A program made the translations under genes and the position numbers. Below, piece by piece: positions 15,503-30,232 of a DNA stretch of 30,232 nucleotides. The stretch is from a bacterium (GTDB taxonomy: Bacteria > Bacillota > Clostridia > Oscillospirales > Acutalibacteraceae). Numbering within the stretch: position 1 is the first letter of the stretch; each line of letters opens with the position of its first letter. The stretch lies in assembly GCA_020626545.1 (NCBI GenBank), contig JAHKZS010000246.1, positions 1 through 30,232 on the forward strand. Direction: 5' to 3'. The notes under the pieces were generated by a model. That model had not been told where the DNA came from. It saw nothing but the letters and a program-made list of their open reading frames with translations, and searched no databases.

Positions 15503-15535
15503 ACGGCTGTCACGTTTAATGTGACAGCCGTTTTT
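15503..15535 (+). terminator. intrinsic terminator after trpB
   Basis: ACGGCTGTCAC (15503-15513) and GTGACAGCCGT (15521-15531) form an 11-bp perfect stem with a 7-base loop, followed by TTTTC. Confidence 0.92.
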
Positions 15536-15769
15536 CTGTTTTTACAATTACTTTATCTCCCGATAAAGTCTGGAAATTATCACATATACTTTAGCTTTTT
15601 AATGCGTAAAACCGCTAAAAAATTGTGAAAAAATGCACAAGTGAAGCCCTGTTTTTTGCTCACATTTTTTGTGTTCGAAAGTTCACGTTGAAAAAGTGAA
15701 TAAACAGCTCATATAAAAAATTCAACAAATTGTTAAAACCTACGAAAATTGCTCAAATATAGCGATAAT
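15536..15769. other. AT-rich upstream region of the surface protein operon
   Basis: No gene is seen. A perfect hairpin CTTTATC-tccc-GATAAAG (15551-15568) has no T-run. TCACATATAC occurs at 15580-15589 and again at 15890-15899 in the leader. AATGCACAA at 15632-15640 recurs at 15767-15775 beside the promoter. These repeated short words in the promoter-proximal DNA suggest regulator binding sites, but each is short. Confidence 0.35.
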
Positions 15770-15811
15770 GCACAAAATTTACTTGCCGACTTTGTGCGAA
15801 AATGATATAAT
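15770..15811 (+). promoter_or_regulatory. promoter with flanking inverted repeat (candidate operator)
   Basis: TTGCCG (15783-15788), a 17-base spacer and TATAAT (15806-15811). The -35 box sits inside a perfect 7-bp inverted repeat: GCACAAA (15770-15776) and TTTGTGC (15791-15797). An additional related word, AATGCACAA, lies about 140 bases upstream. A dimeric repressor binding there would block polymerase. The regulator is unknown. Confidence 0.6.
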
Positions 15812-15817
15812 ATAAGG

Positions 15818-15949
15818 CAAATAATCATATTGAGAAACTGTATTCAATAGCTCATAATCTGTTTTTTCAAAAGTGATATACCGGAAAAGTCACATATACA
15901 AAATTTACCTTGGAAACAAGGAAGTGACGTCCTGTCACTTTTTCTTGAA
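15818..15949 (+). promoter_or_regulatory. leader RNA with alternative terminator/antiterminator helices
   Basis: The leader of the surface protein operon contains four mutually complementary segments: 1 AAGTGAT (15871-15877), 2 GTCAC (15889-15893), 3 AAGTGAC (15922-15928), 4 GTCACTT (15934-15940). Segments 3:4 make a terminator (7 bp, loop GTCCT, then TTTCTT). Segments 2:3 would break it and enclose a perfect CCTTG-GAAA-CAAGG hairpin (15908-15921). Segment 1 can also pair 4, extended by TTCAA (15866-15870) with TTGAA (15945-15949), to 12 bp with a 4-base bulge. This is an aptamer-plus-expression-platform layout. No known riboswitch class recognised; a fold such as 1:4 plus 2:3 is inferred from complementarity. 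Confidence 0.5.
15922..15946 (+). terminator. intrinsic terminator inside the surface protein leader
   Basis: Stem AAGTGAC/GTCACTT (7 bp, 5-base loop) followed by TTTCTT, about 105 bases before the gene start. It would end transcription prematurely unless refolded. Confidence 0.55.
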
Positions 15950-16050
15950 AAAAATAATTAAATACGGAATAATTAAAGTGTAATATATTGATTTATCGGA
16001 AATTATGAAAACATTATTTAGAAGTAAATTTTAGGAAAGGGAGATGGAAA

Positions 16051-19000
16051 ATGTTAACACGAGTTAAATCGACGGTCAAAGAGAAAAGATCAATCTTTTT
16101 AATAACACTGTTTGTGTTTTTGATTGGATTTGTTTTCGCGTCTGTTATCGCGTACGCTGACAGTTATTGCACCGTTCGTATCAATTACTCTTACGAGGAC
16201 GGTACAGCGGCGCACGATCCGTATGTAGCTGTGCTCCGCTCGGGCGAGAATCTCAATGTGGAAGTTACCAACCCCGTTATCCCAGGCTATGTACCCTACA
16301 CCGCGTTAGAGGGCGGTGAGGTTGCGCGCAAAACTACGCTTGATTACCCCGATATAGAAGGGGACGATACCGTTACGATTTATTATCTTCCCGATAAGGT
16401 TCACTATAAGGTAAGATACTTCTTGCAAAATATCCGAGATGACCTCTATACCGAGAATCTTTCGCTTAGTAACGACTACTATGAGAAATCGGGTTATACG
16501 GGTACATACCCCGAGGAGCTTGAGAATATTCATTTTGACGGATTTACTTCTTTGTTCCATGAGCCCGACTCAATCGCTGCCGACGGTTCGACCGAGTTCA
16601 AGCTATATTACGACCGAAATTATTATCTCGTTAATTTCGACCTGGGTAAAGGCGGTTACGGAGTTGAACCGGTATATGCTAAGCACGGCGCAACTTATAA
16701 TATTTCTACACCTAAGCGTACGGGTTATGACTTTATCGGCTGGGTTAAATCGAATGAAGAAGGACAGTATTTAAACAATAGCGGAACTCCGATTACGGAA
16801 GAAGAAGCTAAGGATATCGCTGATGATTTCAGCAGCGGAATCGTTCCGAAAGGTAATACCTACTATAAAGCCGTGTGGAAGCCTATAGATACAAAATACA
16901 CTATCATATATTGGATTGAAAACCCCGAGAGTACCTTGACAGAATCGGCGTTAGACGGAAAGAGCGCCCAAGAAGCTCAGGACTTACTCGCGAAGAATTA
17001 CTCCGTTGCGACGTCCTACGCTGTTGACAACGTTACTTCGGGTACTACGCTTACGTATGATAATACCGTTTTATCTTATGACCTATTTGAGCACGCGGAC
17101 GAGCTTCAATCGGTTTACGAAAAAATGAGCCCCGCTGTAAAAAAGGATCTCACGGAAAACAGCAGATATTATCATCTTAACGAAAAAGCGTCAAGCTTAA
17201 TATTTACTCAGAAACGCTCAGACAGTATAACGGTTGCGGGTGACGGAAGCACCCAGATTAACGTTTACTACGAACGCAAAGAAATGACCTTGAAGTTCTT
17301 CTACGCTAAGTCCGAGGGCGGTACTGTTACCGTGGATGAAAACGGAAGTAAAGGTCTTGAGGGCGGTAAGGTTTCCTTAACAAGCGGTACCAAGGGCTTC
17401 TCTGTAAATCAACAGGATAAAGCTAACGCTACATTTAAACCGATTATTACACAGCTTCGTAACGCTCCTTTCCAAAGATCTGTTGTCGCAAATCTTCCCA
17501 AAATCGTCAAAGGCGGAATGAAAGTCGATTATATTGACGATACAGAAAAAAACCACAGATACTGGTTCTACGAGTTTAAAGTAAAATACGGCGCAAGTCT
17601 GCACAACGTATGGTATAATGACGCGTTCGATACTCAACAGCGTTCCGATAAACCTAACCAGCCGAACGAAGTTGTACGTTTCGGAAGCTGGGCGGTACAG
17701 GAAGGCTCGAAATATAAGGTCGGTAAGAGCAACTTTACCGTTAAGGGCTTCTTCGAAAAGCTCGATGGTGATATATTATTGACGGATACGTTTATAAATT
17801 ATAACCTTAAGAATACCCCCGGTTTCGACTATACCACATTATACTTCGCGGCATCGTGGGATAATACCGCGGCAAGCTCAGGCGACTGGAACGGCTCCGC
17901 GTCAAAGGTATTTAACTTTACTTATAAAAACTATACCCAGCTTTTACCGTGTGAGGATTACGTTATTGAATCAAAGGGTTGGGATACCTTTTTTAACGGC
18001 GGAGAATATCCCGGAGGATTTTATTCTAAAAACGGATTCTACTTTGAGCCGGGATATTGGGAACCCGGTCAGTATGTAGACGTTATCGAGAACAACGGTG
18101 TAAGATACGGCTTGAAAGCTCAAAATATCGTTGAAACGATTGACGCGGGCGGTAATTACCATACCTTATCTGAACCTAATCTTTCGAATGAGGTAAAAAA
18201 GAACCAGACCGCTGTTTCTATGGTGGGTTATACGTATATTACCGAAGCCAACGTAATTAAGAAGAATTACACCCATTATTATTCGAATGGCAATGAGGTT
18301 GTTACGGAAGATAAGAATCTTAGTACCTACGACATAAACCCTCTTTCGATTTGGTATGATAATGACGGTGAGGGCGGATTTGACGCTAAACATCACTGCG
18401 ACGTAATGTTTTTCTATAATTTCAATACATATAAGCTGAACTACTATAACTACAATGTAATTCAGCATGCGGCGTCTCCGAGAGCTCCTTACGACGGCCC
18501 GTTTAATGCTACATCTTTAAGATACGAGAACCCCGAGTTCCCTGTTGAGGGACTTGAGAATTACTATGTTTTCGAGGGCTGGTATTGGGATCCGTTCTAT
18601 ACTAAAAAGCTTAATTACGATACAGACCGTATGCCCGCCGACGATACTACGTTCTACGCGCGGTGGCTGCCTGTAACTAACGAAGTCAAATTCTATAACG
18701 ACTATCGTTCTTACAGCTTGAACCAAGAGCCTGTTAACTCTTGTACAGTTGATTACAATTCGCTTATTGATACTGCGGATGTTCCGGCGGATGATCCCGA
18801 CGCGGTGCATAAGCTGAATCCGCTTAACAACGCTATGTTCGCGGGCTGGTATTATATTGACGAAAACCGTCAGCCTGTAAGATTCGACCCCGAAACTCTG
18901 CCGGTAACGCGCGACCTTAAATTATACGCGGAATGGGTTTCCAGAGATACCGCTAAGTATCAGGTAACTTATACCGAACAGGGTACAGGTAAAGAGGTAG

Positions 19001-21750
19001 CTCCTCCGTCGACAGGTACGGTATTCGTATCAAAAACCCGTACATTTACCGCTAAGAGCGGCTCTGAACTCAACGAGGAGCATAAGTGGGTAGACGGAGA
19101 GGCTAACTGGTGGCCGACTATGTCGTCGCACTCAATCCTTATTGAGAGCAACGAGGATGGAAAAGAGTTCGAGCCTAATACATATAACTTTGAATATATC
19201 CATAAAGAAAAAGTATGGTATAGAGTACAGTATATTGATAAGGATTCAGGCGAGATACTTTACGACACTCAGGACGACCACACTGCCTTTGCTGTTGTCA
19301 CCGAAAGAGCTCAGTATATTGAAGGATATGTTCCCGATAAGATTTCACGTTCGATAGTTCTTTCGGCTTCGGTAAATAGCGATTCCGAAAAGGCTAAGGA
19401 AGAGGAGCTTAAAAATAACCGAATAATCTTCTTCTATACAAAGAGTAATACAGGTACTCTGTATCAGATAGACCACTATATCCAGAATGCCGACGACAGC
19501 TCTAATTATGAGCTTTACTACAGCGAAAACCAGACAGCTCAAATCGGCGATACTGTTAACGCTTCCGATATTTACTCGCGCGATACTTGTACAGCTCTTT
19601 TAGACAGAGGCTATACGATTGACGAGAGTAAAACAAGCATAAAAGTTAACGACGAGGAAACGGCGTTGAATACAAGCGTTACGTTGGACGGTAATGTAAC
19701 GGTTATCTCGGTTTACTATAATCGAAAAGCTTATAAGTACACCGTTAAGTATTACGATTACGAGGCTGAAAAGCTTTACGACAACGATCCTACGCTTTGG
19801 GACGGAGAAATTAAAGCTCCCGAAACGTTCGACGCTCAGCCCGTAGGTAAGATAGTTAATGTAGACGCTCCGTCGTCGCTTAGATACAACGACGCTAACT
19901 ATACCCGTATAAGCGACCGTCAGCTTACGGTAACTATCCGTACCGATAAAGATCCTCCCGAAACGAATATAATAAAGGTTTACTATAAGAGAGACAGCCA
20001 GCGTAAACTCAGCTATCGTACGTACTGTGAATTAGACGCTGACGACGCGGAAACCTATGCGGTGCTGTCTTCTTCTCAGGAACTCGTCGAAAAAGCCGAG
20101 GAAATCAAGGGCTGTACCGTGACACCGATGTCCGATGACGAGCTTGAAAGTAAGTATATATTTAAGGGTTGGTATTTAGATCCTATAAACTATAGGACTG
20201 ATAGTCCGATTAGTACCAGCTTAACTTATAAACCGAACGAAATACCGGGCGCGGATATTACTTATTATGCCGTATTCGAACAGGTTAAAGTTCATATGAA
20301 CGTAGAGATCCGCTACAATGACGACGGTGTTTATACCAACGACGAATCTTCGAGTTTAGATACCGACGGAAATATGACGGGATACAAAGTTGAATTCGAA
20401 TCGCCGTCCGGATACAAGTGCGGAAACGATACTCCGTACGCTAAGAACAGTAAGTTTAAATTCAGAATAAATAAGAATGACGAAAGACTTTATAAATACG
20501 AGTTTACCGGTTGGTACGAAGAACTCGAAAGCGGAGAGATAATCCGACACGACGACAATAATTCTATGACAGTCGATAATAACCAGAGAGTCCGTAATTA
20601 CCGCTATATCGCGATGTTTAAGAAGCTTCCGCTTCCTGACTCTATGAATTATGAGATTAAGTTCAGGTTTAAAACCCGTCAGTACGGCGTGCAGGATTTC
20701 GTAGTTAAAGATACGCTTACTAAGGATAAGCTCTCCGAAAGTCTTAATGATAAGGGCGCTTATGAGCTTAGCGATGAGTTCATTATGGCGTTAGCTCCGT
20801 TCGAGAGTAATCACGGTGAGACGTTATGCTGGACTGATAAGAATATCGTGAAGGACTCGAAGGCTTCGCCCGATACTATGTATACCGTAGTAACCGCCGA
20901 ACAGGAAATTAAAAAGGTTCACGTTAATTATCGTCTTAACGAGTCGGGCGCTTATACTACCATTCAAACCACCATAGGCGCTAACCGTGAAACAGACCAA
21001 AAGCTTGCCGCTTTGGATTTACGTGATAATAAAAACTTCAGCTATTGGGCGATTAGAAAATCCGAGGACGGAAAGGTAATAGCTAAGTGCTATGACTCTT
21101 GGTTTACTTTCTGTATTATGGATGACTACTTTATAAGCCCTGTGTTTAATGATTCGGACAGCAGTGCAGAGGATACCGAAATCGTTCTGACTCACCTCGA
21201 TTATTCTCGAAACCGCTGGACTGACGAGGACGGTAATCTTTTCCCGAACGGAAGCACCGACTTAATGTACACCGATTTCGAGATCGCTTTTGGCGGCGAA
21301 AATAATAAACTTAGAAACGACGGCGACTATACAGCGGGCGTAGTGCTTGAGTATTGCGCTTCACTGCCCGCCGATAAGGAATTTGTCGAGGGCAAGGATT
21401 ATAACTTCGCTTCAAACGAAGCTAATCTCAAAGAGGCTATAAAGAATAAATCGACCGTTTATTCTTATAACGATACTAAACGTCGTTCTATCTCGGTAAA
21501 TAATATACCTAATCTAAGCATTACTAACAAAAACCGGGTTGAGTTTGCTAAGCCGTTTACCAATAACTACACCGAGTCAAATGGCACAAAAACTTATAAA
21601 AACAGAAACTATGTATTAAAGGCGACAGCCTACTTAATCGACAAAGACCAAAACGTAACCCTCAGTAATTCCGTCTACGTTTGTATGAGAAATATAGGCT
21701 CTCAGGACAACGCGCTGGACAATATGAAGGTAATTACTACTACTGATTAA
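16051..21750 (+). CDS. giant secreted InlB B-repeat-type surface protein
   Basis: 1899 residues. A basic N-terminus and hydrophobic segment (about 14-36: FLITLFVFLIGFVFASVIAYA) form a signal peptide with likely cleavage after AYA. The rest is a series of beta-rich modules. InlB B-repeat/Flg_new units are marked by a hydrophobic strand then GYxFxGW (e.g. TPKRTGYDFIGW, YYVFEGWYWDPFYT, AMFAGWYYI, YIFKGWYLDP, YEFTGWYEE). MucBP-like units show VRYIDKDSGE/YYxRK pairs. No LPXTG motif, C-terminal membrane helix, dockerin or SLH domain is seen; the end is NMKVITTTD, so how it stays at the surface is unclear. Ribosome site GGAAAGGGAG precedes the ATG. It is first gene of a three-gene unit. Adhesion or a structural role is inferred. 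Confidence 0.88.
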   Translation: MLTRVKSTVKEKRSIFLITLFVFLIGFVFASVIAYADSYCTVRINYSYEDGTAAHDPYVAVLRSGENLNVEVTNPVIPGYVPYTALEGGEVARKTTLDYPDIEGDDTVTIYYLPDKVHYKVRYFLQNIRDDLYTENLSLSNDYYEKSGYTGTYPEELENIHFDGFTSLFHEPDSIAADGSTEFKLYYDRNYYLVNFDLGKGGYGVEPVYAKHGATYNISTPKRTGYDFIGWVKSNEEGQYLNNSGTPITEEEAKDIADDFSSGIVPKGNTYYKAVWKPIDTKYTIIYWIENPESTLTESALDGKSAQEAQDLLAKNYSVATSYAVDNVTSGTTLTYDNTVLSYDLFEHADELQSVYEKMSPAVKKDLTENSRYYHLNEKASSLIFTQKRSDSITVAGDGSTQINVYYERKEMTLKFFYAKSEGGTVTVDENGSKGLEGGKVSLTSGTKGFSVNQQDKANATFKPIITQLRNAPFQRSVVANLPKIVKGGMKVDYIDDTEKNHRYWFYEFKVKYGASLHNVWYNDAFDTQQRSDKPNQPNEVVRFGSWAVQEGSKYKVGKSNFTVKGFFEKLDGDILLTDTFINYNLKNTPGFDYTTLYFAASWDNTAASSGDWNGSASKVFNFTYKNYTQLLPCEDYVIESKGWDTFFNGGEYPGGFYSKNGFYFEPGYWEPGQYVDVIENNGVRYGLKAQNIVETIDAGGNYHTLSEPNLSNEVKKNQTAVSMVGYTYITEANVIKKNYTHYYSNGNEVVTEDKNLSTYDINPLSIWYDNDGEGGFDAKHHCDVMFFYNFNTYKLNYYNYNVIQHAASPRAPYDGPFNATSLRYENPEFPVEGLENYYVFEGWYWDPFYTKKLNYDTDRMPADDTTFYARWLPVTNEVKFYNDYRSYSLNQEPVNSCTVDYNSLIDTADVPADDPDAVHKLNPLNNAMFAGWYYIDENRQPVRFDPETLPVTRDLKLYAEWVSRDTAKYQVTYTEQGTGKEVAPPSTGTVFVSKTRTFTAKSGSELNEEHKWVDGEANWWPTMSSHSILIESNEDGKEFEPNTYNFEYIHKEKVWYRVQYIDKDSGEILYDTQDDHTAFAVVTERAQYIEGYVPDKISRSIVLSASVNSDSEKAKEEELKNNRIIFFYTKSNTGTLYQIDHYIQNADDSSNYELYYSENQTAQIGDTVNASDIYSRDTCTALLDRGYTIDESKTSIKVNDEETALNTSVTLDGNVTVISVYYNRKAYKYTVKYYDYEAEKLYDNDPTLWDGEIKAPETFDAQPVGKIVNVDAPSSLRYNDANYTRISDRQLTVTIRTDKDPPETNIIKVYYKRDSQRKLSYRTYCELDADDAETYAVLSSSQELVEKAEEIKGCTVTPMSDDELESKYIFKGWYLDPINYRTDSPISTSLTYKPNEIPGADITYYAVFEQVKVHMNVEIRYNDDGVYTNDESSSLDTDGNMTGYKVEFESPSGYKCGNDTPYAKNSKFKFRINKNDERLYKYEFTGWYEELESGEIIRHDDNNSMTVDNNQRVRNYRYIAMFKKLPLPDSMNYEIKFRFKTRQYGVQDFVVKDTLTKDKLSESLNDKGAYELSDEFIMALAPFESNHGETLCWTDKNIVKDSKASPDTMYTVVTAEQEIKKVHVNYRLNESGAYTTIQTTIGANRETDQKLAALDLRDNKNFSYWAIRKSEDGKVIAKCYDSWFTFCIMDDYFISPVFNDSDSSAEDTEIVLTHLDYSRNRWTDEDGNLFPNGSTDLMYTDFEIAFGGENNKLRNDGDYTAGVVLEYCASLPADKEFVEGKDYNFASNEANLKEAIKNKSTVYSYNDTKRRSISVNNIPNLSITNKNRVEFAKPFTNNYTESNGTKTYKNRNYVLKATAYLIDKDQNVTLSNSVYVCMRNIGSQDNALDNMKVITTTD

Positions 21751-21775: not shown

Positions 21776-21931
21776 TTGAAAAAAGAATATATCTCGCCCG
21801 AATTCTTTTATAAGGGCGTAGCGCTCGACGATGTTTTATTGAACAGCGTCGAGGGATATTCCGAGTATATAGCGCCTACGGATCCTTTGGATGATCCGAT
21901 TATAGAGAACGACGATTATATGTGGGATTAA
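21776..21931 (+). CDS. 51-residue acidic small protein, TTG start
   Basis: A short gene between the giant surface protein and the LRR-dockerin gene. It starts at TTG (21776), preceded by a strong AAGGGGGAG ribosome site, and encodes MKKEYISPEFFYKG...DDYMWD. There is no signal peptide or membrane segment; the N-terminus is basic, the rest very acidic (many D and E, Tyr/Trp at the end). The KKxYxxPE start followed by a hydrophobic patch resembles unnamed short proteins of gut Clostridia that I recall only loosely; no family is assigned. Spacing of 25 and 11 bases to its neighbours puts it in their operon. It could be a chaperone-like, modified or regulatory peptide; all are inference. Confidence 0.7.
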   Translation: MKKEYISPEFFYKGVALDDVLLNSVEGYSEYIAPTDPLDDPIIENDDYMWD

Positions 21932-21942
21932 CGGAGGAATTT

Positions 21943-22812
21943 ATGAGAAGTTGTTTTAGAATTATTTGCGTAGTTTTATCTATACTCATTTTAGGCTCCG
22001 TTAACGTCTATGCCGCTGACTCTTACGTAACCTTGGACGGCTTCGCGTTCGATATTGACGAAAGCGGCGGCGCGGTTATTCACAGCTTCGACGACCGTAC
22101 CGATAAGGTAGTTATTCCAAAAACTCTCGCGAGAGCCTATGTAACCGAAATCGACGATTACGCGTTTTTCGAGGATACTTATATAACGTCCGTTTCGTTT
22201 GAGAATGCTTCTAAGCTCAAAAAGATTGGATCGAACACCTTTTACGGTTGTACTGAGCTTAAAGAGCTTATTCTTCCCGATAATTTAGAGGAAGCGGGCT
22301 TCGGAGTTTTTCAGAACTGTACCGATTTAAAATCGGTCAGCTTAGGCGGATTGACCAAAGTTCCGAGCCAGGCATTTTATAACTGTAGTTCGCTTGAAAG
22401 GCTCGATATTCCCGAAACGGTTGAGGCTATAGGCTCGAGAAGCTTTGAAAACTGTACTTCTCTTGAGGATGTTTATATTCCCGACAGCGTGATCTCTATC
22501 GAGGATAACGCCTTTAGCGGTATAGATAACCTGATTATATATTGTAACGAGGGCTCGTACGCCGAAAGTTACGCTATCGCTAATAATATTAAGTACGATA
22601 CTCCGAAAAGCTACGATCTCGGCGACGCTAATCTCGACGGCAGGTTAAATATTCTCGACGCTACGCTGATTCAGAAATTTAAAATCGGCGCCGAAGAAAT
22701 CCCGCTCTACCGAGGCGAGAACTTTGCCGACGTAAACCGCGACGGAAGCGTTACGATTCGTGACGCTACGCTGATTCAGATGAAGCTCGCGCGTCTTATA
22801 GACGAGTTTTAA
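21943..22812 (+). CDS. secreted leucine-rich-repeat (BspA-like) protein with C-terminal dockerin
   Basis: 289 residues from the ATG at 21943, chosen because CGGAGGAATTT lies just before it; a GTG at 21922 would overlap the previous gene. Signal peptide residues 1-25 (CVVLSILILGSVNVYAA). About 45-215 are LRR_5 (BspA/TpLRR) repeats with units such as FYGCTELKELILPDN, FQNCTDLKSVSL and FENCTSLEDVYIPDS. The C-terminus (about 224-285) is a type I dockerin with two calcium-loop/helix duplicates, DANLDGRLNILDATLIQ and DVNRDGSVTIRDATLIQ. Dockerins bind cohesins, so this protein may attach to a scaffold. It lacks a catalytic domain; a recognition or adhesion module is likely. It closes the three-gene unit; a terminator follows. 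Confidence 0.92.
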   Translation: MRSCFRIICVVLSILILGSVNVYAADSYVTLDGFAFDIDESGGAVIHSFDDRTDKVVIPKTLARAYVTEIDDYAFFEDTYITSVSFENASKLKKIGSNTFYGCTELKELILPDNLEEAGFGVFQNCTDLKSVSLGGLTKVPSQAFYNCSSLERLDIPETVEAIGSRSFENCTSLEDVYIPDSVISIEDNAFSGIDNLIIYCNEGSYAESYAIANNIKYDTPKSYDLGDANLDGRLNILDATLIQKFKIGAEEIPLYRGENFADVNRDGSVTIRDATLIQMKLARLIDEF

Positions 22813-22825
22813 TAATATGTAAATT

Positions 22826-22853
22826 GAACTCCGCTTTCGCGGAGTTCTTTTTT
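22826..22853 (+). terminator. intrinsic terminator of the surface protein operon
   Basis: GAACTCCGC (22826-22834) pairs with GCGGAGTTC (22839-22847), 9 bp with a TTTC loop, then six T residues. Confidence 0.88.
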
Positions 22854-22908: not shown

Positions 22909-25569
22909 TTATTTAACGCTTACCTTAAAGGTAAGTTTAATGCCGTTTGTTTTAACCTTAACCTTGGCTTTGCCTTTGCGTAAGGCTTTTACGTAACCTT
23001 TCTTAGTTACCTTTATCCGCTTGTTAGAAGCGATGAATTTAGCCTTTCCGACTTTTCCGATAATCTTTATCTTGTATTTTTCGCCGAGCTTTAAGGTCTT
23101 TTTCTTGACCTTGAGTCTCGGGCTTTTAACTTTTATCTTGAACTTCACCGACACGCCGTTATTTTTAATCGTGATATACGCCGTGCCCTTTTTTAGCGCC
23201 TTTATCTTGCCCTTGGAGCTTACCTTGGCTACCTTGGGTTTAGAACTCTTGAAAGTCACCGCGCCTTTTTTATTCTCGATTTTTACCGAGATTTTATAAG
23301 TACCGCGTCTGTAGATTTTCGCTGATTTTTTCTTTAGCGTAATCTTGGTTACGGCGGAGGGCTTTTCTATCGGGTCTGTGACGGGCTGAATCTGAGGTTC
23401 GGTTACGGGTTCGCTCACGGGATCGACAGGTATTATCGACGGAGCTGTTACAGGTTCGGTCGGCTGTTGAACTTCGGTAGGATTCTCAGCCGGTTCGGTC
23501 TGAGGTTCTGGCGGATTTGTGGTTATGGGTTCGGTTGTTTCGGGAACTGTCGAAGTTTCTTCCGTCGGTTCGGGAGTAGAAGTAATCGGTTCTGTTGTTA
23601 CAGGTCCTGAAGTTACAGGCTCGGTAGTTTGAGGTTTGGTTGTCTCGGTTTCAGTGGTAACTTCCCGGGTTGTCGCAGCTTCTGTAGTTGTAGCATCTGT
23701 AGTAGGCGGTACTGTAGTTGCGGGTTCGGTAGTCGGAGGTTCTGTCGCCGGCTCAAAAGCGGGACGGTCTACCTTAGCGGTTGTGATACTAGTATCGCTC
23801 ATCTCTTTAGACATCCAAGCCGCGCGGCTTATCATCCAGTCTCGAGCGTAGTTGTACATTCCCTCGAATGTGTTAGCGTATCTATCCGTGGTTTTGTACT
23901 CGTTGTACGTCTTGGTATCGTCGTCGTAGAACGCGTTGTTTAAACTCGAATGGTCGGCAATCCAACCGCTCGTTTTTAGCAGCCATCCGCTTTTATAATT
24001 CATAAGCGCCGAATCGCTTATGAGCGAGTAGTATTTATCCGCGGTGTAGAAATCGCTGTTTACGGAGGAGATATATTTTCTGCCTAAGAAATGGTCGATA
24101 GCGGGTACGAATTTTTCGAACCATATTTTTTTCGACGCCTCAAAAACTCCGTTGTTCTGGGAAAGACGGTTTAAGATATTGTTAGAGATTTTTCCGCGCG
24201 AGCCTTTTTCCTTGTAACGACACCACCATCCCGAGTATTCCTCGTAGTCGGTAACTCCGATATTTCTGAGGTCGTTTTTAACGCCCGTGGCGTTGCCTAG
24301 CGAGTTGTCGTAATCCCATACGGGCGAACCGTAGAATTTATATTTTCCGTTTTCGTCCTGCCTGTATGTAAAGAACATACTTGAGGCGCCCGAATCCCAG
24401 TTTTTGCCGAGTTCGTTTATAAGGTAGATTTTAGCTACCGAGTCAACGTCGGCGTAATCGGATAAATCGGCGGTCGTACTGCCCGAAGCGTTGTAAAACT
24501 CGCTGAATTTAGTTTTAACGTATTCCTTAACCTCGTTGTAACCTTTGTCGGTTGAGTCGAGCTCGGGAGCTTTAATAGTAACTTTAAGTCCGTTGTTGAG
24601 TGATACGTAATAATCCTCAGCGGCGTTAGCGCTCGCGTCCACCTCGCATAAAAACGGAAAATCTTCCTTTACATTACCGCTTTCGTCGAGGTAATCGGTT
24701 TCCTCAAAATCGCTTACTAAGCTCGACGAGCCTACGTCGATTTTCTCGCACATCTGGTACGAACCCCAGTAATATCCGTCTGAGTAGAAATCTACGTAAC
24801 GTGAGTCGGAAGCGTACGGCATACCTACAGCGTCCGAAAGGTCGTATAAAAAGCGGTTTCTCGAGAGCGAGTCGTCCTGATAATTCGCGAGAATCGAATA
24901 CTTCTTCGATTTAGGCATTCCCGCTATGCTGACCTTACTATCGTAGGTTATATTATAGGCTTTCTTGGCTTTTTGCCATGTTGTATTACCTCTGCCCTTA
25001 ATCTTTTTGATATTGGTGTTGTCGAGCTTGCCGTCGGGAGTGACGATTGCTCCCGAAGCTTTCGCGCTCAGGCTTTTATCGGAGTTTAAGTAATTCATTA
25101 ACTCCGCGCCGTTGCCGTCGGCGTCGCTGTTGTTTATGTAAATCGCCGCCTCGGCGTTGGACTTCATAAACTTTAGTGTGTAATTAGTTCCGTTTATATT
25201 AACAGTGTAGTTTTTATCCTGCTCATAAGCTATCGGAGAGGTTTTACCCGCCTCAATTAAAACGCCGTTAACGCTGACGTCGAACTGATAACCGTTGTAA
25301 ATATCTACGCTGTTTGTATCAGCCGAAGCCGGAAGAAAGAAGTATTTCTCCGTCGGTTTAGCTTCGTTAAAACTCTCGTCATGTGCGCTCTGCCAAGCCT
25401 GCCACGCTTCGCTGTCAGCCGAGTTTAACACGGCGTGGGCGAATAGAGCGTTTTCGGCGGTAAATCCCGTAGGTGTGCCGAGCTCAGTTTCGTCAGCGTT
25501 TACGCTCATAGCTGTAAAAATTGACACAACCATCAGCAAAGAAAGCAGTGTAGCCGTTAGTTTTTTCAT
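22909..25569 (-). CDS. secreted CotH-family protein A with TEP-rich linker and Ig-like tail
   Basis: 886 residues. Signal peptide 1-25. The CotH kinase-fold domain (about 35-590) shows [45 protein letters not shown] and [12 protein letters not shown] (W418, D419, D421); B. subtilis CotH is an atypical protein kinase, and the last motif holds its metal-binding Asp. A linker of Thr/Glu/Pro repeats follows (about 603-738), then two lysine-rich Big_2-like Ig repeats (about 742-886). Spore-coat function is not implied; related secreted CotH proteins occur in Ruminococcus. Ribosome site AAAGGAGG overlaps the MATE stop codon, 13 bases away: co-translated with it. Clear paralog of the gene at 28018. 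Confidence 0.93.
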
Positions 25570-27965: not shown

Positions 27966-28017
27966 TATTTCAACATAGCGAAAAGCTATCTTGAAAATAA
28001 TTGAAAGGGTGGAAAAA

Positions 28018-30232
28018 ATGAAAAAGATTAAAAAGATTTTAAGTGTATTTTTAGCCGCTGTTTTAACGCTGGGTATAACGGCTGCGGCTCCCATGGTAAA
28101 CGCTGATACAGAAGCGCCGAAGCTTTCCTTTAACGCGGATAAGGCGCTTTACGTACACGCCGTATCGTCGTCCGAGGATGTCGAGGCGTGGAGCGCGTGG
28201 CAGTGTGTCCACGGCAGAGATTATAAAGAGATTAACCCCGACGAAAAATTCTTCTTCCTGCCGTCGTCAGCGGACTCATCTAAGGTCGATATCTTTAATA
28301 ATTTTACCGAAAATGTAAATGTTAACGGTACCGAAATCCCCGCGGGCAAAGTGACCGAGGTGAATTACGAACAGGATAAAACCTACGAGGTAAAAGCTGA
28401 GAACGAAACATATAAATTGCGTTTTATGAAATCCGAAGCTGAAGCAGCAGTGTACGTCAATAACAGCGACGCCGACGGCAAGGGTACCGATTTATTTACC
28501 TATCTAAGCGGTGAAAAATCCAATACCGCAAAGGCTGCGGGCGCAATTGTTTCTCCCGACGGCAAGGTGGATAACACATCTATCAAGAAAATCAAAGGCA
28601 GAGGTAATACAACCTGGAATATGGATAAAAAGCCGTTCAATATAACTTACGACAAGAAAGTCAGCGTAGCCGGTATGAAAGAGGGTAAAAAGTACTCCCT
28701 GCTCGCTAATTTCCAGGATGATACCCTTTCGAGAAACCGTATACTCTACGACCTTTCGGACGCGGTAGATATGCCTTACGCATCTGACTCGCGATACGTA
28801 GATTTCTATATGAACGGTTATTACTGGGGAACGTACCAGATGGCTGAAAAAATCGAAGTCGGTAAAAATTCTCTTATCAGCGACTTTGAGGAAACAGATT
28901 ATCTTAACGAGGATGGAAGCGTTAAAGAGGATTTTCCGTTTTTGTGCGAGGTAGACCCCGGCGCTCAGGTAGCGTACGATTATTTCGTAACGCTCGACGA
29001 CGGTTTAAAGATTACGATTAAATCCCCCGAAATTGCTCAGGGTGAAAAAGGCTATAACACCGTTAAAAATTACGTTAAAGAAAAGTTTACCGAGCTATGC
29101 GGCGCATTAGGAACGAACGACGAAAAAATAAAAGATATTGCCGACGTCGATTCAGTCGCTAAGCTTTATCTGATTAACGAACTCGGCAAGAACTGGGACG
29201 CGGGCGTGTCGAGTATGTTCTTTACATATAAACAGGACGAAAACGGTAAGTATAAATTCTACGGTTCGCCTGTATGGGATTACGATAACTCCCTCGGTAA
29301 CGCCGCCGGTATTAAGGAAATGCTCGATTATTTCGCGATTTATGATTACGAAAAACCGACCGGTGAATGGGGCTCGTTTGCTATGAATTTTATCTCTAAC
29401 GAGGTTTTGTTAAATCGTATTAAAGAGATTTGGTTCGAGAAATTTGTTCCCGCGATTGATCATTTTACGGGTAAGAAGTTTAACAGCGATATGGATAAGG
29501 TTTTCCATACTAAAGATAAATATTTCTCGCTTGTTGAAAAGAGCGCCGCGATGAACTACGCTTGCGGTTGGCCGACGTATACGGGCGAATGGATTGCCGA
29601 CCATACCTCGCTTACTAAACTCTCTTACGATGTTGAAACCAACACCTACTCCGTAAACAAGTATCCTACTTCTTATCCCGATACCTTCAAGGGTAAGTTC
29701 GATTACGCTTGCGATTGGATGGTTAGCCGAGCGGCTTGGCTGTCGAAGGAGTATTCCGCCGAAAAGGTAGAGGAGGTCGAAATTAATAACGAGGAAGATT
29801 TACCTCCCGTCGTTGAACCCGAAAATCCTGTTGGCGAAAAAACTCCCGCTATTTCGGCTAAAAGCTTATCGCTTAAAGCGGGCGAAGCAAAGGTGTTAAA
29901 GGTGACGAACGCCGGCGTTAAAAGCTGGAAAAGCTCTAACGCTAAGGCGGTTTCTGTAAAGGGCGGAAAGGTTACCGCGCTTAAAAAGGGTTCGGCAGTA
30001 ATTACCGCAGCTCTCACAGACGGCGGTAAGCTTACCTGTAAGGTTACCGTAAAAACTTCGCCTAAGCTGAGCAAAAAGAGCATTACCGTTAAGGTAAAGA
30101 AAACTAAGACAGTAAAAATTATCGGCAAAGCGGACGGATTTAATAATAAGTATAAGAACACTAAAACCGCTAAAGTTACTTCTAAAAAATCCGCTAAAAG
30201 CCTAAAGATAAAAGGACTGAAAAAGGGCAAGA
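28018..30232 (+). CDS. secreted CotH-family protein B, truncated by the window end
   Basis: 738 codons are inside the window and no stop is reached. It begins MKKIKKILSVFLAAVLT, a signal peptide (about 1-30), with AAAGGGTGG as the ribosome site. The CotH domain carries [45 protein letters not shown] and [12 protein letters not shown] (W420, D421, D423). It is visibly similar to the gene at 22909 over the whole domain, more than half the residues identical by eye. A short acidic linker (about 585-610) replaces the long TEP linker. The tail is Lys-rich and Big_2-like (TALKKGSAVITA). Separate transcription from AraC is likely because of a terminator between them. Confidence 0.93.
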   Translation, partial: MKKIKKILSVFLAAVLTLGITAAAPMVNADTEAPKLSFNADKALYVHAVSSSEDVEAWSAWQCVHGRDYKEINPDEKFFFLPSSADSSKVDIFNNFTENVNVNGTEIPAGKVTEVNYEQDKTYEVKAENETYKLRFMKSEAEAAVYVNNSDADGKGTDLFTYLSGEKSNTAKAAGAIVSPDGKVDNTSIKKIKGRGNTTWNMDKKPFNITYDKKVSVAGMKEGKKYSLLANFQDDTLSRNRILYDLSDAVDMPYASDSRYVDFYMNGYYWGTYQMAEKIEVGKNSLISDFEETDYLNEDGSVKEDFPFLCEVDPGAQVAYDYFVTLDDGLKITIKSPEIAQGEKGYNTVKNYVKEKFTELCGALGTNDEKIKDIADVDSVAKLYLINELGKNWDAGVSSMFFTYKQDENGKYKFYGSPVWDYDNSLGNAAGIKEMLDYFAIYDYEKPTGEWGSFAMNFISNEVLLNRIKEIWFEKFVPAIDHFTGKKFNSDMDKVFHTKDKYFSLVEKSAAMNYACGWPTYTGEWIADHTSLTKLSYDVETNTYSVNKYPTSYPDTFKGKFDYACDWMVSRAAWLSKEYSAEKVEEVEINNEEDLPPVVEPENPVGEKTPAISAKSLSLKAGEAKVLKVTNAGVKSWKSSNAKAVSVKGGKVTALKKGSAVITAALTDGGKLTCKVTVKTSPKLSKKSITVKVKKTKTVKIIGKADGFNNKYKNTKTAKVTSKKSAKSLKIKGLKKGK

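Follow-up and report, generated by a model that had tools for sequence, protein, structure and literature searches.

A fixed-spacing palindrome over the promoter and a probably lineage-specific palindromic stretch in the leader of a giant-protein gene of an uncultured Clostridia-type bacterium

A gene for a protein of 1899 residues lies in the window (the whole stretch of 30,232 nucleotides that was analysed) behind a promoter whose -35 box is enclosed by an inverted repeat and a leader whose segments can pair in competing ways. The first-pass annotation of this DNA proposed a new riboswitch or attenuator in the leader, with the promoter as a possible further layer of control. Where, then, would the control of this gene reside: in the RNA of its leader or in the DNA of its promoter? 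The leader element is probably not a riboswitch, because no counterpart turned up in any relative that was examined; the folded stretch itself is real. The palindrome over the promoter belongs to a set of fixed-spacing sites that precede many genes for secreted proteins in the genus. The proposed riboswitch, if true, would be a new RNA class, and the failure to find the element in any relative saves the effort of pursuing it. The putative operator family offers a testable handle (a fixed 30-bp palindrome and its helical phasing) on the control of large secreted proteins in uncultured Clostridia of the window's genus, which are probably rumen dwellers.

The giant-protein gene and the predicted folds of its leader

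The promoter, leader, and genes are arranged as follows, in coordinates of the window.

15769-15798, no strand: 30-bp palindrome TGCACAAA-N14-TTTGTGC(G), the proposed operator straddling the -35 box
15770-15797, no strand: core GCACAA-N16-TTGTGC, with arms GCACAA (15770-15775) and TTGTGC (15792-15797)
15783-15811, + strand: sigma-A type promoter, TTGCCG (15783-15788), 17 bp, and a TG-extended TATAAT (15806-15811)
15816-15860, + strand: first part of the leader
15860-15960, + strand: lineage-specific imperfect palindrome of 101 nt with four competing segments
15866-15876, + strand: segment 1, TTCAAAAGTGA
15889-15893, + strand: segment 2, GTCAC
15908-15921, + strand: hairpin CCTTG-GAAA-CAAGG, exact
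15922-15928, + strand: segment 3, AAGTGAC
15934-15940, + strand: segment 4, GTCACTT, then TTTCTTGAA
15922-15940, + strand: hairpin 3:4, AAGTGAC-GTCCT-GTCACTT, -7.2 kcal/mol, then TTTCTTG; weak terminator candidate
15961-16048, + strand: last part of the leader, with the Shine-Dalgarno sequence
16051-21750, + strand: open reading frame of 1899 aa; List_Bact_rpt/Flg_new repeats, and a start resembling a signal peptide (by eye)
21922-22812, + strand: LRR_5 and dockerin protein of 296 aa, downstream of the 1899-aa gene

The open reading frame for the giant protein has the size first claimed for it. Because the gap between it and the LRR-dockerin gene holds no promoter or terminator candidate, and a terminator candidate (22826-22847) appears only after the second gene, the two genes probably share a transcript. 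A stem of -20.8 kcal/mol (15503-15531) lies behind the upstream gene. Adjoining the operon are two CotH-kinase proteins (22909-25569 on the - strand and 27991-30231 on the + strand), with a MatE transporter and an AraC regulator between them.

A search of 161 genomes of the genus with the first 300 residues of the 1899-aa protein gave matches in 37: the window's own genome, 33 at E <1e-30, and three at E ~1e-4 (G044, G160, and G054). Four homologous loci come from named genomes. Three of these, at 66-69% identity, belong to uncultured Clostridiales bacterium RUG081, RUG196, and RUG447, and the fourth, in a Lachnospiraceae MAG, is weak (38% identity). We take the RUG records to be rumen genomes and the genus, presumably, to be rumen-dwelling.

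The four segments with competing complementarity are present in the leader as the annotation described, and so is its perfect CCTTG-GAAA-CAAGG hairpin. The segments can adopt two arrangements, 1:4 together with 2:3, or 1:2 together with 3:4. For the transcript from 15818 to 15960, the first arrangement is predicted at -27.7 kcal/mol, and forcing 3:4 to form gives -26.0 at best (the second arrangement); the two folds lie within 1.7 kcal/mol of each other and are nearly isoenergetic. Both 2:3 and 1:4 exclude hairpin 3:4 in the predicted folds, in line with the proposed blocking of 3:4. Pairing 1:4 had been described as a 12-bp helix. The long helix is there, but it is not continuous: a 4-base bulge separates AAGTGA/TCACTT from TTCAA/TTGAA in the predicted fold.

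The 101-nt element folds at -24.5 kcal/mol (z -3.2), and none of 200 dinucleotide shuffles is as stable. The 248-nt stretch from 15815 to 16062 is ordinary (z -0.46, with 60 of 200 shuffles as good). Stretches of 101 nt with z <= -3.2 are present in 12 of 38 leaders (the window and 37 homologs, with 60 shuffles each), so stable hairpins in themselves are common in these leaders. One homolog (L074, in G142) has a strong, unrelated leader hairpin, its best 101-nt stretch reaching z -7.2, and several genes of the family thus carry private leader hairpins.

Conservation of the leader and readings of the folded element

The leader was compared piecewise with 37 homologous leaders, with 200 shuffles per comparison. 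The promoter (15765-15815) beats all 200 shuffles in four of them (L048, L059, L057, and L046), the region upstream of it (15620-15760) in one (L048), and the last part of the leader in two (L057 and L059). The first part of the leader beats all shuffles in none of the 37 (L048 is best, with 1 of 200 as good), and the same is true of the element (best L056, 1 of 200 as good). These alignments show that related sequence flanks the element in a few homologs, yet does not reach inside it. The homologs have 34-66% protein identity near the N-terminus, and with leaders this divergent a fast-evolving RNA could be missed. Homolog start codons were picked by script, and the set of 37 skips loci that share their first 60 coding bases with an earlier locus (hence the absence of L014 and L026). 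Two loci (L031 and L044) were dropped because no start was found, the gene of L044 being regained through L074, and L075 and L076, which repeat L064 and L060, were removed. For L018 and L019 the match lies entirely within a longer protein, and the sequence upstream of L060 is just 102 bases long.

Rfam gave no match above the gathering score in the window. A covariance model was built from the single sequence and its 1:4 with 2:3 structure; at E <= 0.01, its sole match in the 161 genus genomes is the element itself, and with a one-sequence model, strict filters, and at most 25 candidates scored per genome, distant relatives could be missed. Among 42 sources, the model gave four matches besides the element, at E 5.9 to 7.6. 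Short matches of 24-37 bases at E 1.8e-4 to 8.6e-4 in 5 of 97 other genomes are taken for chance; four lie in AT-rich leader sequence and one inside the start of the gene. The annotation had named a lack of conserved pairing segments in front of homologous genes as grounds for refuting the riboswitch or attenuator. No conserved copy was found in the 37 leaders and 161 genus genomes examined, which goes against the proposal, and a count of compensatory changes would require just such homologous copies.

The joint reading that we consider probable takes the element for a lineage-specific, palindrome-rich stretch of the leader and places conserved control in the DNA palindrome over the -35 box. 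The element takes up some 100 nt of a 5' leader that is otherwise related to those of homologs; it would fold in the mRNA, most likely as 1:4 with 2:3, and might stabilise the message or its 5' end or cause slight pausing. It would not be a conserved ligand-sensing switch. The four-segment layout arises in 1 of 5000 dinucleotide shuffles of the leader, by a criterion set after the element was seen. The 37 homologous leaders do not have it, nor does the rest of the 30-kb window on either strand. This rare layout, together with the small energy difference between the folds, has the look of a switch and counts against reading the element as a lineage-specific stretch.

A possible but less favoured explanation is that the leader received a small palindromic insertion, MITE-like or of a similar kind. 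The ends of the element are imperfect inverted repeats (TTTTTTCAAAAGTGA / TCACTTTTTCTTGAAAAAA), and its flanks align with some relatives where its middle does not. The -10 box and the start codon are 245 nt apart in the window versus ~92 (L057), ~106 (L059), and ~120 nt (L048) in the three homologs whose -10 box aligns with the window's, which also fits an insertion; with the last -10-like box used instead, the distance is 62-121 nt in eight chosen homologs. However, leaders longer than 200 nt occur in other homologs as well (e.g., L039, L040, and L053, by eye), with different sequence, and there is no clear target duplication (by eye). A DNA search of the own genome found no second copy at E <= 0.001, and neither phage or plasmid sequences (E <= 0.01) nor viral contigs (an exact match to one 21-base stretch of the element) gave a match. 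A phage, plasmid, or viral origin was rejected on these searches.

More doubtful is a lineage-specific attenuator, in which hairpin 3:4 would stop transcription except when 2:3 or 1:4 is formed, the choice falling to a ligand, a protein, or a stalled ribosome. Attenuation leaders and the expression platforms of riboswitches carry mutually exclusive hairpins upstream of a gene, and the element shares this feature: its two exclusive folds are close in energy, its layout is rare in shuffles, and it sits between promoter and gene. It differs from those systems in lacking, as far as was found, conservation, a convincing terminator, and an aptamer family. At -7.2 kcal/mol (versus -20.8 for the stem behind the upstream gene), with three G-C pairs and a short broken T run (TTTCTT), hairpin 3:4 is a weak terminator candidate, and it does not appear in the list of the + strand terminator scan. 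The best folds of a growing transcript, taken in 5-base steps, go to 2:3 once segment 3 is made and then to 1:4, never to 3:4. Six leader ORFs of at least six codons are present, with AAGG or GGAA near three of them; none of the six has a well-spaced or convincing Shine-Dalgarno sequence, and a leader peptide is unlikely. That no relatives of the element were found in the 161 genomes and 37 leaders also weighs against an attenuator.

A GTG-started ORF of 36 codons (15873-15983) spans the element, without an evident Shine-Dalgarno sequence. Translation control by hiding of the gene's Shine-Dalgarno sequence was considered and rejected: folding without the element leaves the pairing of 16035-16053 nearly as it was.

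A riboswitch class shows itself by sequence and structure that stay conserved in front of related genes. No such conservation was found here, and a new ligand-binding class is very improbable: an arrangement resembling aptamer plus platform, and nothing more, speaks for it, against zero Rfam matches, no second example in the 161 genus genomes, and none among the 37 homologous leaders.

The palindrome over the promoter and its recurrence in the genus

The inverted repeat that had been noticed around the -35 box is exact. GCACAA/TTGTGC occurs three times in the 3,204 intergenic bases of the window, always upstream of the 1899-aa gene, and eight times in coding sequence. In a word count over 35 leaders (the window included; L060, L018, and L019 omitted), TGCACAAA/TTTGTGCA appears 16 times versus 1.2 expected, and among 8-base words only a GACA repeat and Shine-Dalgarno-like words are more prominent. 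L055 has an array of GACA-type tandem repeats upstream of the homologous gene.

At the matching promoter position, 6-9 bases before the -10 box, the site is present with one or two mismatches in four of 38 leaders (the window, L048, L057, and L059), versus none of 1520 shuffles at <=2 mismatches. In the other 34 of the 37 homologs, an N14 site with <=2 mismatches is absent from this position. L061 has a site with two mismatches at spacing 13, and L048 and L059 also have two mismatches at spacing 12 (the same places, with overlapping A-runs). Control by the operator is thus not general in the family, and its spacing is not absolute. The suggestion that control also acts at the promoter is supported: the inverted repeat belongs to a fixed-spacing site family in the genome and genus, and its promoter position recurs in 3 of 37 homologs.

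The words AAGTGA/TCACTT are enriched around the promoter and leader (five in 15531-16050 versus 0.34 expected). Together with the upstream region conserved in L048, these words may form a second set of binding sites.

Within the own genome, the pattern GCACAA-N(8-30)-TTGTGC occurs in ten places, all ten at N16, and the reversed-pattern control in none. When the arms are extended by one base at each end and <=3 mismatches are allowed, there are 35 places versus 7 for the control. Across the 161 genus genomes, 1,039 matches lie at spacings of 8-30. N16 accounts for 248 of these, in 101 of the genomes; the other 22 spacings account for 791, a mean of 36 per spacing, and the genus control for N16 has 11 sites (counted by hand from the table). 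The 33 genomes that encode a strong homolog of the giant protein carry 3.0 N16 sites per genome, as compared with 1.1 in the 127 others (Mann-Whitney p 8e-5); sites at other spacings show no such excess (4.4 versus 5.1). In an order sample of 245 genomes, the own genome included, 91 have at least one site; the own genome has ten, and every other has five or fewer. A search for RNA families of the Rfam type at the ten site loci found no known family. The palindrome is symmetric, keeps a fixed spacing, and recurs before related genes, and these properties place it in a family of putative operators.

The context was read for 50 sites in five genomes, chosen for having many sites or a homolog with the site at its promoter. 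These comprise ten exact and three one-mismatch sites of the own genome and the exact sites of G182 (16), G183 (8), G170 (7), and G125 (6). By eye, 36 of the 50 are followed on one side, no more than ~400 bp away, by a gene whose product starts like a secreted protein or lipoprotein, such as LRR-type proteins, a subtilisin-like protease, and solute-binding lipoproteins. Among the remaining sites, some lie at contig ends, and others stand by an EF-G-like gene, a histidine kinase, or a DegV-like gene. All gene identities behind sites (LRR, subtilisin-like, murE, EF-G-like, and solute-binding) were assigned by eye. For other genomes 31 sites were read, as a rule the first per genome, and eight of these lie inside an ORF and look like chance. 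The palindrome stands between murE-like and solute-binding lipoprotein genes in four genomes (L081, L139, L156, and L158; names by eye) and upstream of an EF-G-like gene in four (L086, L162, L168, and L128), with a nearly identical spacer in the first three of the latter.

Beside 18 of the 50 sites is a promoter of the form TGAAAC-N16-GAC(R)CTACTATAGTG, for which we assume the label ECF-like from its -35 consensus. These sites belong to three genomes: seven to the own genome (L077, L078, L079, L082, L083, L084, and L149), eight to G182 (loci L157, L165, L183, L184, L185, and L187), and three to G183 (L189, L190, and L191). By the pattern used, none of the 13 sites of G170 and G125 has such a promoter. 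The distance from the first base of the core to TGAAAC, allowed to range from 28 to 160 bp, is 60-61 bp at ten sites and 69-72 bp at eight. The two classes differ, by inspection, by about one helical turn. Several of the target genes, those of G182 among them, look like paralogs, and the 18 phased sites are therefore not independent. Sequence, spacing, and distribution of the sites, and their phasing in three genomes, are observed directly.

Readings of the palindrome as regulatory DNA

The putative operator TGCACAAA-N14-TTTGTGCA straddles the -35 box, and conserved control would accordingly lie in the DNA. From the layout of the sites we infer a binding protein, a sign of regulation, and possibly a signal. 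A putative dimer or tetramer would bind the two half-sites, which are two helical turns apart, and would touch two major grooves 22 bp apart on one face of the helix. Over the -35 box, such a protein would compete with RNA polymerase and repress the giant-protein gene. The same site ~61 or ~72 bp upstream of the ECF-like promoters of secreted-protein genes may serve activation from a fixed face of the helix.

Taken together, these two positions would allow one regulator two opposite uses. Bound ~61/72 bp upstream of ECF-like promoters, it would activate LRR and other secreted proteins; bound across the sigma-A -35 box, it would repress the giant repeat protein, and the cell would switch between two surface coats. 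This extension is speculative, and we hold it to be rather unlikely.

In another reading the palindrome is no operator but part of a promoter recognised by an alternative sigma factor. In four genes it overlaps the promoter and keeps a constant distance to the -10 box, which would fit such an element. The symmetry of the palindrome would not, nor would its position elsewhere, 60-72 bp upstream of a different type of promoter and on the same helix face, and the sigma-factor reading is accordingly given little credence. An operator remains the preferred reading of the palindrome.

Operators of comparable geometry are found among known regulators. The NikR operator, GTATGA-N16-TCATAC, shares 6-bp half-sites in inverted repeat with exactly 16 bp between them, but its half-site differs from the one here. 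NikR was also rejected as the factor on domain content: NikR_C (PF08753) has no match in the 87% complete own genome, and the control matched in 5 of 14. PurBox pairs of the Bacillus PurR and operators of BirA likewise consist of inverted half-sites with about 16 bp between them; their half-site sequences and target genes differ from those described here.

A histidine kinase (His_kinase PF06580) and a response regulator are encoded at L178 (531-2669 of G000:C90), with a one-mismatch site upstream. The response regulator was considered as a candidate factor and set aside: its output region has no Pfam match, so nothing follows from it about the factor.

Among the matches listed in the literature, judged by title, none was seen for the palindrome motif, for which novelty is not claimed, and those for the downstream promoter part CTACTATAG looked unrelated. 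ECF sigma promoters have TGAAAC and a spacer of about 16 bp. The target promoters share with them the -35-like TGAAAC and the constant spacing, and are candidates for this type. The form TGAAAC-N16-GAC(R)CTACTATAGTGAA recurs before secreted-protein genes, in phase with the palindrome.
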